From Paludisphaera borealis (GTDB taxonomy: Bacteria; Planctomycetota; Planctomycetia; Isosphaerales; Isosphaeraceae), in the NCBI RefSeq assembly GCF_001956985.1, contig NZ_CP019082.1:5518001-5582000 (forward strand): 64,000 nucleotides of DNA, given 5' to 3'. This document shows positions 4,165-11,532 of the stretch, one piece after another. Position 1 is the first letter of the stretch. Each line of letters starts with the position of its first letter. A program made the translations under genes and the position numbers. Below the pieces are notes generated by a model, which saw only the letters and a program-made list of their open reading frames with translations, had not been told where the DNA came from and did not search any database.

Positions 4165-5475
4165 ATGGCGCGTTTCTTTTCGATGCGGCGGCCCGCCCGG
4201 GCCGACCAGCGGGTTCTCGGGGGCGTCGAACGCTCACGGCGGCTTCAGCGACGGTTCAAGCTCGGCATCGTGGTGGCGACGTTGATCGTGGTCGCCGGAA
4301 TTCTGGCAGCGGTTCCCCGGGGCCGTCACCTGGTCGCCTCGGTCGCCGATCGGGCGCGCCAGTCGGCGCGATGGGCCGTCGGGCTGCCGGTGCCGCGCGA
4401 GGAAGTCGACGCCCGCCATGAACGCGATCGGCGTCAGGCGGTCGACGACGCCGCGCGGAAGTTCCGCGACGCCTTCCCCACGATGGATGAGCCGATCCAG
4501 CGGCTGTTTCGATACGCGGGGAGCGACCCGGACGCCGGCCTGCTCCGCTGGGGCAACTTCGACCAGACGTTGCTGCTTCCCTCGACCGTCTTCGAGCCCG
4601 ACGACGCCGGCCGCTCCTACTGCCTGAAGCCGAATACGCGGTCGATCTGGGTGCGGAACGTCTCCCCCAAGGGATCGCCCCTGACGTTCCTGATCGTCCC
4701 CGACCGCCCCGAGCTTGCCGAGGTGCTTCAGGGGACCGGCGGGATCATCGTGACGACGTCCGTCCAGACCACGAACTCGTGGGGCCTGCGCGGGCCCGAG
4801 CCCGATCCGTCGGCCCCGCTGCGGGGGATCGTCCTGGGCGACTCGTACATGCAGGGGATGTTCATCGACGACGACCACACCCCGCCCGAATGCCTCCGGC
4901 GCTACCTGGAAAACCACGAAAAGACCGGCGTTTCGATCTTGAACACCGGCTGTCTCGGCTACTCGCCCGAGCAGTATTACTATTCGCTCCTCAAGTTCGC
5001 CGACCGCTTCAAGCCCCAGTTCGTCGTGATGAGCGTCTTCGCCAACGACTTCGGCGGCATCCTGGAGGTGGCCCGGGGCAAGGGGGACTGGGATGAGGGG
5101 CGGTACTGGCTGGGTGAAATCCAACAAGTCTGTCGCAGTCGGGGTTTGCTCCTCCTCGTGGTCCCCGCCCCACTCGACAGCCAGATGAACTCCGCGCGGT
5201 TCGCCGGCTACTATCCCGGGCTGATCTCGAACATCCTTAACGGCAGCAGTGAGGCGTATCTTGATCCGACCGAAGAGTTCATCAATCGAAATATCGCGAT
5301 GATCCTTGAAGGCGATCGCGCGGGGAATCGGCCGACGGGCAGTCCGCTTTACAACAACGCAATCGGCGACGGCCACTTCTCGCCGGCCGGCGCCGAGGTC
5401 TGGGCCGAAGCCGTCGGCCGCCGCCTCGTCCTCCTGCTCGACAAGGCCCGCGGCGCCCGGCGGCCGAGCCCCTGA
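4165..5475 (+). CDS. Membrane-anchored SGNH/GDSL-type hydrolase
   Basis: A 436-residue protein. A hydrophobic segment near residues 32-52 (GIVVATLIVVAGILAAV), preceded by many Arg residues, suggests a single N-terminal membrane anchor with the rest outside the cytoplasm. LGDSYMQG provides the GDS nucleophile block (Ser about residue 227) and DGHFSPAG near the C-terminus provides the Asp-x-His block (His about 404). FANDFGG may be the third SGNH block. Such proteins are esterases or O-acyl transferases acting on cell-surface glycans; the substrate here cannot be read. The start is supported by GAGGACCGG just upstream. It follows the TPR/C39 gene and may be co-transcribed with it. A second SGNH protein lies at 9971-11299 on the other strand. 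Confidence 0.8.
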   Translation: MARFFSMRRPARADQRVLGGVERSRRLQRRFKLGIVVATLIVVAGILAAVPRGRHLVASVADRARQSARWAVGLPVPREEVDARHERDRRQAVDDAARKFRDAFPTMDEPIQRLFRYAGSDPDAGLLRWGNFDQTLLLPSTVFEPDDAGRSYCLKPNTRSIWVRNVSPKGSPLTFLIVPDRPELAEVLQGTGGIIVTTSVQTTNSWGLRGPEPDPSAPLRGIVLGDSYMQGMFIDDDHTPPECLRRYLENHEKTGVSILNTGCLGYSPEQYYYSLLKFADRFKPQFVVMSVFANDFGGILEVARGKGDWDEGRYWLGEIQQVCRSRGLLLLVVPAPLDSQMNSARFAGYYPGLISNILNGSSEAYLDPTEEFINRNIAMILEGDRAGNRPTGSPLYNNAIGDGHFSPAGAEVWAEAVGRRLVLLLDKARGARRPSP

Positions 5476-5612: not shown

Positions 5613-8039
5613 ATGCCAAGATCGACTCGGCTCTCCCCCATCCGGGGATCGAGGATGAGATACACCGGCTTCGTCGCACTTGCGGCGGCCGTCCTGATGA
5701 TGAACGCGACGCCTGCGTTCGCCCAGGGTGGGCAACGCCTTGCCGGTTCGGCGACCCAGCTCAAGCAGCCCGTGGCCAACCAAGTCTTCCAGCGCGACGT
5801 CAACGGCGTCGCGTCGATTCCGATCGAGCTTGACGACTCCTTGAAAGGCGGCAAGATCGCGAGCGTATCGATCGGAAATCGCCAGTATGAACTGGTCGAC
5901 GGCAAGATCGTCGGGGTTCCCACCGGCGGGCCTTATTCGATCGCGATCATGTACGACAAGGACAATGAACATCAAGCCCTCATGTTCAACCCTGGCATCT
6001 TCGTCGGCGACCTCTGGGTTCTGGCCGGGCAGTCGAACATGGAAGGCGTCGGCGACCTGATCGACGTCACGCCGCCGCACGAGAAGGTTTTGGCCCTCGG
6101 GATGGACGGCAAGTGGGTTCAGGCTCAGGAACCGCTGCATTGGCTGGTCGATTCTCCTGATCCGGTCCATTCGGGAGATCCCAAGGACCGGGCCGAGCGG
6201 TCGGTCCAGCAGCACAAGACGCGGACCAAGGGTGCCGGTTTGGGTCTGCCGTTCGCGGTGTCGATGGTCGAGCGCACCGGCGTCCCGGTCGGCCTGGTGA
6301 TCACCGCCCACGGCGGAACGAGCATGCAGGGATGGGACCCCGCCAAGAAGGGCGAGGGGGGGAACAGCCTTTACGGATCGATGCTTCGTTCGGTCAACCT
6401 GGCCGGCGGCAAGGTCAAGGGCGTGCTCTGGTATCAGGGCGAGAGCGACTCGTCGCCGGAAGGGTCGAAGATCTACGAGCGCGTGTTCGCCGACTTCATC
6501 GCGTCGGTCCGGTCCGATCTCGGTCAGCCGGACCTGCCGTTCTACTTCGTGCAGATCGGCCGGTTCGTCATCGGCGGCGATCCCAAGGGCTGGAACACCG
6601 TCCAGGACGCCGAGCGCCGGTTGCCTGACAGCATCGCCAACACAGCCGTCGTCTCGGTGATCGACCTCGAACTTGACGACGCAATTCACGTCGGCACGCA
6701 GGGGCAAAAGCGCGTCGGACAGCGATTGGCGAAGATCGCCCAGCGCGAGCTGTTCGGGCAGGTGGGTGCCACGACGCCGACCCTCGACCGCGTCATGCGG
6801 GGAGCGAACAACACCCTGGTCGTGAAGTTCCGAGGGGTCAACATGAGCGCGCCTCAGCCCGCCTCCGCCATGGCTCGCGCCGGGATGGGTGGACGAGGGG
6901 GAATGGGGCCCGCCGCAGGCATGGGCGGAATGGGCGGCGGGCAAATGGGTGGAATGGCTGGCGTGGGCGGTGGGCAACCGGGAGGCTTTCCGAACCAGGT
7001 CAGCATCGGCGAGACCTCGAATCTGGGACTGCGGCCCGAGCGGCACATCGCGGGCTTCTCGATCCGCAAGGAGGACGGCTCGGCGATCCCCTTGATCTTC
7101 GATGCGAGCGTCGGCAAGGCGCGCGACGCGGTGGTCCTGAAGCTCTCCGGGCCGGTCCCGCCGGGCTCGTTCCTCTGGTACGGCCACGGCTACGACCCCT
7201 ACTGCAACCTGACCGACGGCGCCGACATGGCTGTCCCCGTCTTCGGACCGATCGCGCTCGATGAGGTCGTCGAGCCCAAGCTGGTCGTCGCAGCCGCGGC
7301 CCCGGCCCCGGCCCCGGCCGCGAAGCCGGAAGCCAAGAAGGAGAACGCGCCGGTCAAGCTGCTGATCATCACGGGCGACGAGTATCACGGCTGGAAGGCG
7401 ACGACCGAGTCGCTCAAGTCGATCCTGTCCGAAGGGGGCAAGATCGCCGTCGACGTGACGACCACGCCTTCGAAAGACCTGACCGACGCCAACCTCGCGA
7501 AGTACGACGTTCTTCTGCTCAACTACAAGGACACCGACAAGGGCGCTCCCGAGACCCGATGGTCCGAAGCCAACAAGGAAGCGTTCCTCAAGGCCGTGCG
7601 CGAAGGCAAGGGGCTGGTGGCCTACCACTTCGCCTCGGCCGCCTTCACCAAGCCGAACTGGGAAGAGTTCGAGAAGGCCGTCGGCGGCTGGCGCACCCAG
7701 GGCTTCCACGGCCCCGCGCACGCGTTCACCGTCAAGAAGACCGACGCCAAGCACCCGATTTCCGAGGGCCTGGCGGTCAAGTTCGACCACGCGATCGACG
7801 AGCTGTATCAGAACTCGAAGCTGCCCGCCGGCGCCGAGGTCCTGGCCACCGCCTATTCCGATCCCGCCAAGCCCAAGGGGACGGGCAAGGACGAGGCGGT
7901 CATCTGGGTCAACTCTTACGGCAAGGGCCGCGTCTACAGCAACGTCCTCGGCCACGACGTCGGGGCGCTCGCTGACCCCAACGTGCACCCGTGGCTCCGT
8001 CGGGGCGTGATCTGGGCGGCGACGGGCAAGGTCGACTGA
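5613..8039 (+). CDS. Sialate O-acetylesterase-type (SASA) domain fused to a ThuA-like domain
   Basis: About 808 residues from the chosen ATG (GGAG at 5598-5601). An ATG at 5655 would start exactly at the signal peptide MRYTGFVALAAAVLMM...AFAQ, and both starts are possible. The first half is a carbohydrate esterase of the SASA type: AGQSNMEG with nucleophile Ser about residue 141, WYQGESDSS, and DAIHVGTQG giving Asp about 356 and His about 359. A Met/Gly-rich low-complexity stretch follows (about residues 420-458). After an Ala-Pro linker, the last ~220 residues from LLIITGDEYHGW resemble ThuA/trehalose-utilisation domains with a class I amidotransferase-like fold. The protein is probably exported and acts on acylated sugars (inference). 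The next gene begins 27 bases after the stop, so they likely form an operon. Confidence 0.85.
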   Translation: MPRSTRLSPIRGSRMRYTGFVALAAAVLMMNATPAFAQGGQRLAGSATQLKQPVANQVFQRDVNGVASIPIELDDSLKGGKIASVSIGNRQYELVDGKIVGVPTGGPYSIAIMYDKDNEHQALMFNPGIFVGDLWVLAGQSNMEGVGDLIDVTPPHEKVLALGMDGKWVQAQEPLHWLVDSPDPVHSGDPKDRAERSVQQHKTRTKGAGLGLPFAVSMVERTGVPVGLVITAHGGTSMQGWDPAKKGEGGNSLYGSMLRSVNLAGGKVKGVLWYQGESDSSPEGSKIYERVFADFIASVRSDLGQPDLPFYFVQIGRFVIGGDPKGWNTVQDAERRLPDSIANTAVVSVIDLELDDAIHVGTQGQKRVGQRLAKIAQRELFGQVGATTPTLDRVMRGANNTLVVKFRGVNMSAPQPASAMARAGMGGRGGMGPAAGMGGMGGGQMGGMAGVGGGQPGGFPNQVSIGETSNLGLRPERHIAGFSIRKEDGSAIPLIFDASVGKARDAVVLKLSGPVPPGSFLWYGHGYDPYCNLTDGADMAVPVFGPIALDEVVEPKLVVAAAAPAPAPAAKPEAKKENAPVKLLIITGDEYHGWKATTESLKSILSEGGKIAVDVTTTPSKDLTDANLAKYDVLLLNYKDTDKGAPETRWSEANKEAFLKAVREGKGLVAYHFASAAFTKPNWEEFEKAVGGWRTQGFHGPAHAFTVKKTDAKHPISEGLAVKFDHAIDELYQNSKLPAGAEVLATAYSDPAKPKGTGKDEAVIWVNSYGKGRVYSNVLGHDVGALADPNVHPWLRRGVIWAATGKVD

Positions 8040-8066
8040 ACGATCCTCACAAGGGAGTATTTATAC

Positions 8067-9335
8067 ATGAAGCGCTATTTCCGAATCGGGGCGACGGCCC
8101 TCCTGACGCTCGGCTTCGTCGCGCCGCTCTTCGCCGAGGAGGCGAAGACGCGGCGGCTGTCGCGCGCCGAGTATCTCGACAAGATGAAGGCCGGCTGGAT
8201 CGGCCAGATGGCCGGGGTCGGCGTCGGCGCCCCGACCGAGTTCCGGTATCAGGAGACGACCGTCCCCGAGGACAAGGTCCCCAAGTGGACGCCCGAGACG
8301 GTCAACCAGTTCGACCAGGACGACATCTACGTCGAGATGACGTTCCTGCGGACGCTCGAACAGCACGGTCTGGACGTCTCCAGCCGCCAGGCGGGGATCG
8401 ACTTCGCCAATAGCCAGTATCCACTCTGGCACGCCAACAAGGCCGGCCGCGACAAGCTCCGCGCGGGGGTCGCGCCGCCGGACAGCGGGCACCCCGCGTT
8501 CAACGACCACGCCGACGACATCGACTACCAGATCGAGGCCGACTACTCCGGCCTGATCGCTCCGGGACTGCCGAACAGCGTGATCCGGCTGGGCGAGGTC
8601 TTCGGCCGGCTGATGAACTACGGCGACGGCCTCTACGGCGGCCAGTTCGTCGGCGCCATGTACGCCGAGGCGTTCTTCACGAACGACGTCGAGAAGATCA
8701 TCCGCGCCGGGCTCGCCGCCATCCCCGAGAAGAGCCAGTATCACGAGTGCATCAGCGACGTCCTGGCCTGGCATCGCGAGCATCCCAACGACTGGCTGGC
8801 GGCGTGGAACAAGATCGAGGCCAAGTACCAGAAGAACCGCGACTACCGCCGGTTCTCGTGCAGCAAGAACGAGAAAGAGCCGTACAAGTTCAACATCGAC
8901 GCCAAGCTCAACGGCGCGTACATCGTGATGGGCCTGCTCTACGGCGAAGGCGACCCGGAGAAGACCATCGTCATCTCGACCCGCTGCGGCCAGGATTCGG
9001 ACTGCAACCCGTCGAGCGCGGCTGGCGTGCTGTTCACGACGATCGGCTATGCCAAGCTGCCCGAGAAGTACAAGAGCGGGCTCGATACCCAGACAAAGTT
9101 CAACTCGACGCCGTACTCGTTCCCGCAACTGGTCGCCGTCTGCGACAGCCTCGCCGAGCAGGTGGTCCGCCAGGCGGGCGGCCGGCTCGACAAGTCCGCC
9201 GAGGGGGCCGAAACCTTCGTTCTCCCCGTCCACTCGCCGCGCCCGAGCGCCCTGGAGACCTGCTGGGAACCCGGCCCCAAGGCTGACAGCCGGTTCACGC
9301 CCGAGGAGCAGAAGCAGATCGAGGCCAAGAAATGA
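8067..9335 (+). CDS. Secreted ADP-ribosylglycohydrolase-fold protein
   Basis: A 422-residue protein with an N-terminal signal peptide (MKRYFRIGATALLTLGFVAPLFAEE). MAGVGVGAPTEF, FDQDDIYVEMTFL (about residue 83) and GQDSDCNPSSAAG (about residue 308) match the Mg-binding regions of the ADP-ribosylglycohydrolase (DraG/ARH) superfamily, with Asp clusters at both ends of the fold. Export argues against action on cytoplasmic ADP-ribosylated proteins; planctomycete members of this family may act on extracellular glycosides or other ribosyl compounds (inference). The start has a strong AAGGGAG nine bases upstream. The stop overlaps the next gene's start by four bases (ATGA), indicating translational coupling. 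Confidence 0.85.
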   Translation: MKRYFRIGATALLTLGFVAPLFAEEAKTRRLSRAEYLDKMKAGWIGQMAGVGVGAPTEFRYQETTVPEDKVPKWTPETVNQFDQDDIYVEMTFLRTLEQHGLDVSSRQAGIDFANSQYPLWHANKAGRDKLRAGVAPPDSGHPAFNDHADDIDYQIEADYSGLIAPGLPNSVIRLGEVFGRLMNYGDGLYGGQFVGAMYAEAFFTNDVEKIIRAGLAAIPEKSQYHECISDVLAWHREHPNDWLAAWNKIEAKYQKNRDYRRFSCSKNEKEPYKFNIDAKLNGAYIVMGLLYGEGDPEKTIVISTRCGQDSDCNPSSAAGVLFTTIGYAKLPEKYKSGLDTQTKFNSTPYSFPQLVAVCDSLAEQVVRQAGGRLDKSAEGAETFVLPVHSPRPSALETCWEPGPKADSRFTPEEQKQIEAKK

Positions 9336-9961
9336 CGAGACTCGACTCTCACGCCCGACGGCTCGCGCCGGGCGTTTCCTTTCTCGCGCTCTTCGTGATC
9401 GCTTCGGCGACGGCCAGCGCGGCCGAGCCGAAGAAGATCGACCTCCGCACGCGGAAAGGGGTCGAGGCGGTCAAGGGGGCGTGGCGGTGGCACGACGTCA
9501 CACTGGTTCCGGTCGTCGGCAAGAACAAGGACGGTTCGCCCAACAAGACGTATAATTACGAGCCCCGTGCCATGGGGCTTGATTACGACGACACCAAGTG
9601 GGAGGTGATCGCCCCCGAGACCCTCAAGGACGCGCGCTCGACGGGCCAGATCTGCTTCTGCTGGTACCGGATCAACGTCACGCTCCCGCCAGAGGTCGAG
9701 GGTAAGCGGGTCTTCTTCCAGACAGTCGTCGACGACTACGGCGAGGTCTGGGTCGACGGCAAGCTCCCGTACAAGCCGGGCGACACCGGAGGCCCGATCG
9801 CCGCCGGCTTCAACGCGCCCAACCGCGTCGAACTCAAGGACGCCAAGCCGGGCAAGTCCTACCAGCTCGCCGTCTTCGGCATCAACGGCCCGATCTCGTA
9901 CACGCCCACCAACTGGATCTTCCTCGGCCCCACGTTCCTGGAACTGGTCGATAAGAAGTGA
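9332..9961 (+). CDS. Secreted jelly-roll (galactose-binding-like) protein
   Basis: A 209-residue protein whose ATG overlaps the preceding stop codon (ATGA). The N-terminus is a signal peptide (LAPGVSFLALFVIASATASA). The body, with DDTKWEVIAPETLK, CFCWYRINVTLPPEVEG and YGEVWVDGKLPYKPGD, resembles the sugar-binding jelly-roll domain at the N-terminus of glycoside hydrolase family 2 enzymes, where the aligned WYR and VWVDG segments are typical. No catalytic domain is present, so it is probably a carbohydrate-binding accessory protein working with the two enzymes upstream (inference). The coding end lies 9 bases from the converging SGNH gene, leaving almost no room for separate terminators. Confidence 0.7.
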   Translation: MTRLDSHARRLAPGVSFLALFVIASATASAAEPKKIDLRTRKGVEAVKGAWRWHDVTLVPVVGKNKDGSPNKTYNYEPRAMGLDYDDTKWEVIAPETLKDARSTGQICFCWYRINVTLPPEVEGKRVFFQTVVDDYGEVWVDGKLPYKPGDTGGPIAAGFNAPNRVELKDAKPGKSYQLAVFGINGPISYTPTNWIFLGPTFLELVDKK

Positions 9962-9970
9962 TCGCGTGAG

Positions 9971-11299
9971 CTAGTTCTTACCTTTCGACCTACCCCCGGT
10001 CGCATCCCGCCAGGTCGCGTGGATGCGCCGGGCGATCGTCGCGTAGCCGTCGGCGTTCGGATGGGTGTCGTATCGCCAGAACAGAACCGACCCGGCGGCC
10101 TCGGCTTTTTCGAGGTCCGCCGTGGCGTCGGCCAGCGGAAGGCTCATGTCGCGGCAAAGATCGGCCAGGAACCGGTTCTGACTGCGATACTTCGGGTCGG
10201 TCGCGAGCGCCTCGGCGATCGTCCGGTCCATGCCCAGCTCGACGAGCGACGGGACGTAACGGCTGTTGACGACGCCGCAGAACGGCACGTAGGCGAGGAT
10301 CAGCCGCGCCTGGTTCTTCTGGCAGACTTCGGCCATGCGCTGGAGGTACCGGAACGGCGAGCCCCCCTGGCCGAAATCGTGTGCGAGCGCGACGGGCATG
10401 TCGGCCGACTGGTTGTACAGCCATGGGTTGAGCCGTCCCGCGACCATGTCGTCGTAGAGCGCGGGGGACAGGTTGTCGGGGCGTCCCTTGCGGTCGGTCC
10501 AGGGGTTGGTGGAATCGGGCACGGGGGCGAAGAACTGGACCGGCAGGTGCAGCCACCGGCGGTAGATCGGCTCCTCGAAGATCGCCCGGCTGGTGAGGAC
10601 GGCGAGTCTCGGCCGCCACCAGAGGCGGGAATCGCCGACGAACGGCTTCCCCGGCGTGTCGAAGACGGGCAAATAGGCCGGCGCCGGCAGGTCGTTGGCG
10701 TAGAGCACGACCACGACGTCGGTCGGATGCAGCAGCGAGACCGCATCGCGCGTCAAGATCGACAGATGCGGCAGGCTCGCGGCGATCACGCCGAGGTTGA
10801 CGACCTCGGCGGCCGTCCCCTCGCGCTGTAAGATCCGCGACCACTCAGCGGTGATCGTCGTCCCGTCGTCGGCCCCCTGGCCTTCGGTCACGCTGTCGCC
10901 GATCACCAGAATCCGCCGCCGCCCCGCGCTTGGCTCGATCGCGAAATCCGGACCTCGAAACCCGTAGAGGTTCAGATTATGGACCTTCGAGAACCCGTCC
11001 GGCCGACTCTCCAGCAGCAGCCGATCGTACACCAGTCCCCGCTTCATGGCCTTGCCAAGCTGCGGATGCACCTGCGCCATCTGCTGGTAATGAATCCGGT
11101 TGAACCCGTTCACCTCCGGCAGCGGGAACAGGAACCGAAACAGCGCCTCCTGGCCGACGAGCAGGAAGGACAGGGTGACAAGTCGAAAGAGCCACCGCCG
11201 ACGCCTCCGCCGTGTGAGAAGCGCCGGGGACGCATCGACTCTCGCGGTAGGCGTCTCCGGCTTCGGTTCGCTTCGGCTCTCGACGTCCGGCGACGGCAT
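9971..11299 (-). CDS. Membrane-anchored SGNH/GDSL hydrolase family protein
   Basis: About 442 residues from the ATG at 11299 (AGGGG ten bases upstream); a GTG at 11338 in the same frame would add 13 residues. After an Arg-rich start, LFRLVTLSFLLVGQEALF is a probable membrane anchor. RILVIGDSVTEGQGADD is the GDS nucleophile block and RYDTHPNADGYATIA is the Asp-x-x-His block near the C-terminus; VVLYANDLPAP supplies the Asn block. All three SGNH signatures are therefore present. The family includes esterases and alginate/peptidoglycan O-acetylation factors; which applies here is not readable. It converges with the 9332-9961 gene. Confidence 0.8.
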   Translation of the reverse strand: MPSPDVESRSEPKPETPTARVDASPALLTRRRRRRWLFRLVTLSFLLVGQEALFRFLFPLPEVNGFNRIHYQQMAQVHPQLGKAMKRGLVYDRLLLESRPDGFSKVHNLNLYGFRGPDFAIEPSAGRRRILVIGDSVTEGQGADDGTTITAEWSRILQREGTAAEVVNLGVIAASLPHLSILTRDAVSLLHPTDVVVVLYANDLPAPAYLPVFDTPGKPFVGDSRLWWRPRLAVLTSRAIFEEPIYRRWLHLPVQFFAPVPDSTNPWTDRKGRPDNLSPALYDDMVAGRLNPWLYNQSADMPVALAHDFGQGGSPFRYLQRMAEVCQKNQARLILAYVPFCGVVNSRYVPSLVELGMDRTIAEALATDPKYRSQNRFLADLCRDMSLPLADATADLEKAEAAGSVLFWRYDTHPNADGYATIARRIHATWRDATGGRSKGKN

Positions 11300-11532
11300 G
11301 GATTCACATCCCCTCTCGTTGATGCTTCGGCTGCTCACGATCTCAAACCAGGATAAGTGCGCGACGGCCGCCTCGCCATCGCATTGACCGCGAGGCCCGA
11401 AATTGCCAAGGCTCTCGATCGAGGCCGGTTCCGCCCGTGACGATCGACTCCAGCCCTTGTCCCCGGCCGGGCTTTTGTTTAAAGTTCAGCTTGACGCGGT
11501 GATGAACGGATGTCGGGTGGAGGTTGGTCGGC

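Follow-up and report, generated by a model that had tools for sequence, protein, structure and literature searches.

Ribose-scavenging (rus) loci of Bacteroides were reportedly described by Glowacki et al. in 2020. For B. thetaiotaomicron, one table row in the part of PMC10434189 used here lists a ribokinase, a TonB-dependent receptor, SusD, DUF4969, a nucleoside hydrolase and a DMT permease, with no ADP-ribosylglycohydrolase (ARH), and the same part reports that in Prevotella intermedia an iron-regulated locus includes a protein of the ADP-ribosylglycohydrolase family. The canonical members of the ARH family (PF03747) are DraG, ARH1 and ARH3; according to the portion of PMC6309922 considered, the metal motifs read E...SDDT...DSDS in ARH1 and E...[TS]DDT...DTDT in ARH3, and in both enzymes the pyrophosphate is held by a conserved Gly and a conserved His. 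The present analysis concerns a 64,000-nucleotide (nt) stretch of the Paludisphaera borealis genome (contig NZ_CP019082.1, positions 5,518,001 to 5,582,000 of the forward strand), hereafter the window, in which an ARH-fold gene lies between two other genes for exported proteins. No literature on the subfamily of this ARH was found by title or abstract start in open-access papers. The three genes are:

5613-8039, + strand: gene A, exported fusion of a SASA (carbohydrate acetylesterase-like) and a ThuA domain (Pfam, SASA at residues 132-376 and ThuA at 583-802)
8067-9335, + strand: gene B, exported ARH-fold protein of a subfamily found partly in ribose contexts (PF03747, predicted model)
9332-9961, + strand: gene C, exported GH2-N-type jelly-roll protein, loosely associated with A and B (fold of the predicted model)

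The A-B pair is a genuine exported unit, conserved across the genus and fused into one protein elsewhere; the parts are known families and the novelty lies in their combination. The reading preferred here, a tentative one held at somewhat less than even chance, is that B releases ribose from a ribofuranoside outside the cytoplasm and that the SASA-ThuA protein acts on the acylated substrate. The first-pass annotation of this DNA had described three closely spaced or overlapping reading frames of exported type, and this is borne out: A and B are separated by 27 nt, B and C overlap by 4 nt, and signal-like N-termini are seen on A, B and C (808 amino acids (aa) from ATG 5613, 422 aa and 209 aa) and are absent on both downstream housekeeping genes tried. 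The spacing suggests a single transcript, and, judged by the signal peptide, ATG 5655 is a likelier start of gene A than ATG 5613. Export was called throughout by a simple hydrophobicity heuristic for signal-like N-termini that gives false positives, being positive in 2 of 11 ribokinases, none of 7 endonuclease III-like and 2 of 3 dehydrogenase-like proteins (the last two named by eye), 1 of 10 other controls, all 8 nucleoside hydrolases and 2 of 3 binding proteins.

The order of the three genes is not unique to this genome and recurs in other planctomycetes, since in all five other genomes of the genus a SASA-ThuA gene precedes the ARH gene and C follows it. B was matched in 9 of the 59 genomes searched, namely its own, the five congeners and the genomes labelled G028, G045 and G043 (the last at 30% identity), and in 14 of 392 genomes of a phylum draw at E 1e-60, its own included, so that its distribution is patchy. 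In G028, SASA, ThuA and ARH lie within one open reading frame (ORF) of 1299 aa, each above its Pfam cut-off, and in Aquisphaera insulae (locus L014) within one ORF of 1260 aa, with the same layout and lengths in locus L186 of genome G123. The occurrence of the three domains as a single polypeptide in Aquisphaera insulae and in G028, a genome of the same genus code, therefore indicates that A and B belong together; an ARH search of G011, which bears the genus code of G028 and G123, gave none.

Both domains of gene A are well above their Pfam cut-offs: SASA (PF03629) with 184.4 bits against 24.8 (3.2e-54, residues 132-376), and ThuA (PF06283) with 112.3 bits against 33.4 (4.9e-32, residues 583-802). 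The SASA serine motif is present as GQSNMEG at 139, with the GQSN serine at Ser141, and a DAIH motif provides Asp356 and His359, all three of which we take to be catalytic. A Gly/Met-rich low-complexity stretch follows the SASA domain (positions 6873-6992 of the window) and a Pro/Ala-rich linker precedes ThuA; the G028 fusion carries a similar Gly/Met-rich stretch. SASA and ThuA are also fused or neighbouring in other genomes with the Isosphaeraceae code: in 15 loci fetched, both domains share one ORF in 9 (one of them L186), at least 4 have two adjacent genes, and 2 could not be settled by the ORF calls. An ARH search in 11 of these 15 genomes found none, and the distribution of SASA-ThuA is thus wider than its link to ARH.

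Gene B matches PF03747 over residues 43-333 with 96.6 bits against a cut-off of 26.2 (2.8e-27), and its predicted model (pLDDT 92.8) shows the all-helical ARH fold, with a Foldseek match to DraG at 2.6e-7 and a superposition on ARH3 (6g1p) of 297 residues at 2.9 A (VIA Z 29.1). No ARH was found among PDB sequences searched with B alone, and a profile of 62 rows gave its best match to MJ1187 at E 1e-5. A scan of named genomes for the subfamily yielded at least 563 confirmed encoding stretches, of which the best 80, 57-77% identical, were taken as loci; by their record titles these come from Planctomycetota, Verrucomicrobia, Bacteroidota groups, Hydrogenedentota, Armatimonadota and others, nearly all of them metagenome-assembled. 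The export of an ARH fold, which the first-pass annotation had considered unusual, turns out to be a trait of the subfamily, because 69 of its 72 assessable ORFs have a signal-like N-terminus (16 of 88 ARH-cluster ORFs being excluded for want of a motif or of enough upstream sequence), and 21 show a lipobox-like pattern. Of the three ORFs with no signal-like start, two (L015 and L029) show ARH preceded by a nucleoside hydrolase domain. C-terminal extensions are seen in many of the ARH relatives.

The active site of B combines conservation and change. The Asp residues expected to bind Mg in the ARH-like protein, which had been set down as a point to be checked, are present, and the catalytic Glu and metal-site Asp positions (E58, D85, D86, D310 and D312) do not vary in any of the 62 aligned sequences, which were chosen from the subfamily loci. 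The other letters of the metal-ligand motifs are altered in most of these rows, with Gln at 84 in 52, Ile or Leu at 87 in 53 and Cys at 313 in 61, so that gene B reads QDDI and DSDC and does not match the canonical [ST]DDT and D[ST]D[ST]. The two other PF03747 proteins of the same genome have SDDT, GxGAAMR, THRD, and DTDT or DADS. When B is aligned with these two paralogs by MAFFT at 16% identity, a five-residue gap is followed by the pairing of their AMR with QIE of B (155-157), and their THRD pairs with MNYG (183-186), the His of THRD coming to lie on Asn184.

B has thus retained the catalytic Glu and, in its dinuclear metal centre, the acidic residues, and its usual grip on the ADP part appears changed, which suggests that it most likely cleaves a ribofuranoside, either nucleoside-like or glycan-linked. 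Such cleavage outside the cytoplasm would release ribose, which in some relatives could be taken up by means of an adjacent transporter and ribokinase; the SASA domain would probably act on the same material by stripping its O-acyl groups, and ThuA may be an accessory or a further carbohydrate-processing domain. In this sense we infer the activity, the substrate, the order of steps and the changed ADP site, and hold tentatively that the ARH is better read as a ribose-releasing hydrolase than as an ADP-ribosyl hydrolase. The first-pass annotation had proposed an extracellular pathway for acylated or ribosylated sugars; a role for ribose gains support from the genes neighbouring some members of the subfamily, and the pathway itself keeps the standing of a proposal.

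These neighbours are as follows. Among the 80 loci a ribokinase occurs in 11, a transporter similar to RhaT or ureide permeases in 11, either of them in 12, and any ribose or nucleoside-hydrolase gene in 15; for the 52 loci having more than 3 kb on both sides, 10 show a ribokinase or transporter. At the density of PfkB-type genes in the P. borealis genome (8 in 7.65 Mb, the size of that genome), the Poisson chance of 11 ribokinases in 1.04 Mb is 2e-8, a figure that ignores kinship and the after-the-fact choice of queries. The kinase checked (L021) lies above two ribokinase equivalog cut-offs, and the transporter checked (L047) is RhaT-like below the cut-off and above that of Ureide_permease. 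A nucleoside hydrolase domain precedes ARH within one 868-aa ORF at L029:7014-9620, and L015:22-2184, cut at a contig edge, is probably a second such fusion. Five Bacteroidales loci (L226, L228, L229, L234 and L236) have three consecutive ARH genes beside a SusD-like gene and a ribokinase on the flanks, joined in four of them by a sugar transporter. In a FastTree tree of 90 rows, the Isosphaeraceae ARH clade (8 rows, 100*) is sister (95*) to L057, where genes for a periplasmic sugar-binding protein and an ATP-binding cassette (ABC) ATPase come after ARH in the same orientation; the label of ribokinase, transporter, nucleoside hydrolase or such ABC genes, borne by 17 rows, needs at least 11 changes on this tree, with short-flank rows counted as lacking it.

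A number of observations weigh against ribose release by B. The change of its ADP site is suggested by an alignment at only 16% identity, and the profile comparison of B with the two canonical paralogs was not significant (probability 5% and 1%). No match to a ribokinase, nucleoside hydrolase or transporter falls inside the window in the whole-genome searches, and neither a PF06800 nor a PF07168 transporter was found in the genome. There is no ribokinase or transporter match in 68 of the 80 loci and no ribose or nucleoside-hydrolase match of any kind in 65, many of the loci being short, and the queries for this whole count were drawn from those same loci. For this last reason, 25 Bacteroidales loci that had supplied no queries were also examined, taken from another search with matches in 22 of 247 genomes at E 1e-60; in favour of a ribose link, a ribokinase or transporter is present in 10 of these 25 and in 0 of 34 control loci. 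The Bacteroidales ARHs form a more distant branch, as their scores are lower (442-503 bits, with one locus at 236 and further copies lower, where members of the 80 reach about 650-700). The control loci are of Isosphaeraceae type and not matched by phylum; among them L186 holds an ARH, L149 a distant ARH, and L148, picked for its nucleoside hydrolase, matches that and ABC genes. In the tree, 26 of the 87 inner branches are starred, and the ABC binding proteins score best to the allose model and then to ribose, all below the equivalog cut-offs. Moreover, other relatives have ThuA, 3-keto-disaccharide hydrolase and Gfo/Idh/MocA genes as neighbours, which speaks for a different pathway.

As for the host, the only nucleoside hydrolase match of its genome, exported as judged by eye, heads a sugar ABC operon (L148:5802-10390), and one ribokinase lies above the cut-off; therefore P. 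borealis could use freed ribose. The product of B may enter through this operon and ribokinase, and nothing ties the operon to A and B.

Four other explanations can be set against ribose release. B could be a true extracellular ADP-ribosyl hydrolase acting on ADP-ribose, NAD-derived molecules or ADP-ribosylated proteins, with the esterase stripping O-acetyl groups, for example from O-acetyl-ADP-ribose; its membership of the DraG/ARH3 family and fold and the retention of all five acidic metal-site residues speak for this, which is nevertheless quite improbable given that Thr/Ser metal ligands have become Gln and Cys in the great majority of the rows counted above and that the AMR and THRD positions differ in B, in a region of uncertain alignment, where ARH1 and ARH3 use Gly and His in the portion of PMC6309922 cited. 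It is unlikely, too, that B is a secreted metal-dependent glycosidase for another furanoside or acylated glycan, the ribose neighbours of its relatives being a clade-specific choice of substrate: the many loci with neither ribokinase nor transporter, sulfatase matches in 10 of the 80 and the SASA partner, which suggests acylated glycans, agree with such an enzyme, but several separate branches, among them the sister of the window's clade, have ribose, nucleoside-hydrolase or sugar-ABC genes.

A third explanation, one of the main rivals, is that A and B serve an extracellular 3-ketoglycoside route, in which ThuA and the ARH-fold protein would act on oxidised glycosides deacylated by the esterase. 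In four planctomycete contigs (L020, L023, L026 and L030) ARH is the last gene of a conserved same-strand run that also holds ThuA, a 3-keto-disaccharide hydrolase and a TIM barrel of xylose-isomerase type (families by Pfam for representatives and by sequence cluster for the rest), so that here again ThuA and ARH occur together, with surroundings suggestive of 3-ketoglycosides; Gfo/Idh/MocA matches occur in 7 of the 80 loci, and DUF1080 is proposed as a 3-ketoglycoside hydrolase in the part of PMC9007349 used. The four loci, however, are one branch of the tree (support 93), and no gene of this kind was found beside A and B among the seven window proteins scanned. Genes of 3-ketoglycoside routes are abundant in planctomycetes, and therefore chance neighbours are likely, which leaves this route rather improbable. 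The remaining explanation, that A, B and C form a three-protein machine with C as its carbohydrate-binding part, can draw on the adjacency of B and C in all six genomes of the genus, the window's included, on their 4-nt overlap in the window, on the fold of C, that of a GH2 sugar-binding domain, and on the C-terminal extensions of many ARH relatives. It is highly improbable in view of what is known of C elsewhere.

Gene C has no Pfam family above cut-off (the best is an Ams1-like jelly roll at E=0.027), and its model (pLDDT 82.4) matches the GH2 N-terminal jelly roll of 5uj6 over 137 residues at 2.6 A (VIA Z 13.9), a fold found in beta-glucuronidases and beta-galactosidases; unlike the GH2 enzymes, C lacks a catalytic barrel and is exported as a protein of its own, 209 aa long. 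Matches to C at E 0.001 are found in 34 of 297 genomes of the class, 21 of them with the window's family code, including its own genome and the five congeners. ARH was not found in 12 of the 13 C-bearing genomes of the family searched outside the genus (15 in all, some less than 90% complete), and in G028 C and ARH are about 37 kb apart. In 9 of 15 fetched loci C adjoins a gene belonging to one sequence cluster, whose tested member is a C45 autoproteolytic acyltransferase/hydrolase, and several C loci also lie near genes resembling guaA, purC and aroC (by eye; purC by Pfam in the window). Because C is present without ARH in those 12 relatives, and adjoins a C45-type gene in most of the fetched loci, it is not an intrinsic third member: of the unit of three genes put forward by the first-pass annotation, the A-B part stands, by its order in the congeners and its fusion in A. 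insulae and G028, and the place of C does not.

In the window C is still near purC and an aroC-like gene, and the C45 relative is about 69 kb away. That the C45 gene had been replaced by the A-B operon finds no support, as all six genomes of the genus keep a C45 relative elsewhere (split in two in G004; some rows with an in-frame TGA were counted); C was therefore presumably separated from C45 by rearrangement, and appears to have joined A and B in this genus in the same way. The idea that C is a split-off C-terminal extension of longer ARHs is unsupported, the extension profile matching C at E=0.15 and the C-family profile matching 64 ARH extensions at best at E=0.028, with hhalign probabilities of 4-6% and no significant match. 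In L115 and L116, from two genomes of another family, a C homologue was matched twice in one open frame, of 431 and 452 aa. Searches of NCBIfam with A, B and C gave no match at E 0.1. Two GDSL/SGNH-like genes flank the operon, one upstream at 4165-5475, below the Pfam cut-off, and one downstream at 9971-11338 on the opposite strand, above it.

Beyond the locus itself, B may stand for a widely spread, undescribed family of secreted dinuclear-metal ribosidases on the ARH fold that no longer act on ADP-ribose, wired to an esterase-ThuA protein in Paludisphaera-type Isosphaeraceae and fused to it in Aquisphaera, and would strip ribose from acylated ribosides; in this full form the proposal is doubtful. 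If B is indeed a ribosidase, it would represent a new carbohydrate-active enzyme family, and if it frees ribose, many proteins that score as ARH (at least 563 stretches) would serve to scavenge environmental sugars instead of regulating protein modification, and a direct clue to the substrate of ThuA would come from the SASA-ThuA-ARH fusion.

Compared with the known systems, the rus loci are resembled by the surroundings of certain B relatives, since a ribokinase and SusD are near ARH in L065, L074, L086, L226, L228, L229, L234 and L236, most of them also with a transporter, and L065 and L074 additionally with a nucleoside hydrolase; the A-B locus differs from rus loci in that no ribokinase, nucleoside hydrolase, SusD or transporter adjoins it. 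With the canonical PF03747 proteins B has in common the predicted fold, the Pfam score and the Glu and Asp residues of the metal site, and it departs from them in being exported and in the motifs of its subfamily, which reads Q-DD-I/L and D-S-D-C where they have [ST]DDT and D[ST]D[ST]. The SASA and ThuA domains of gene A, finally, are recognisable members of their families, and what sets them apart is that they are fused here to each other, as in several genomes with the Isosphaeraceae code, and to ARH in A. insulae and G028.

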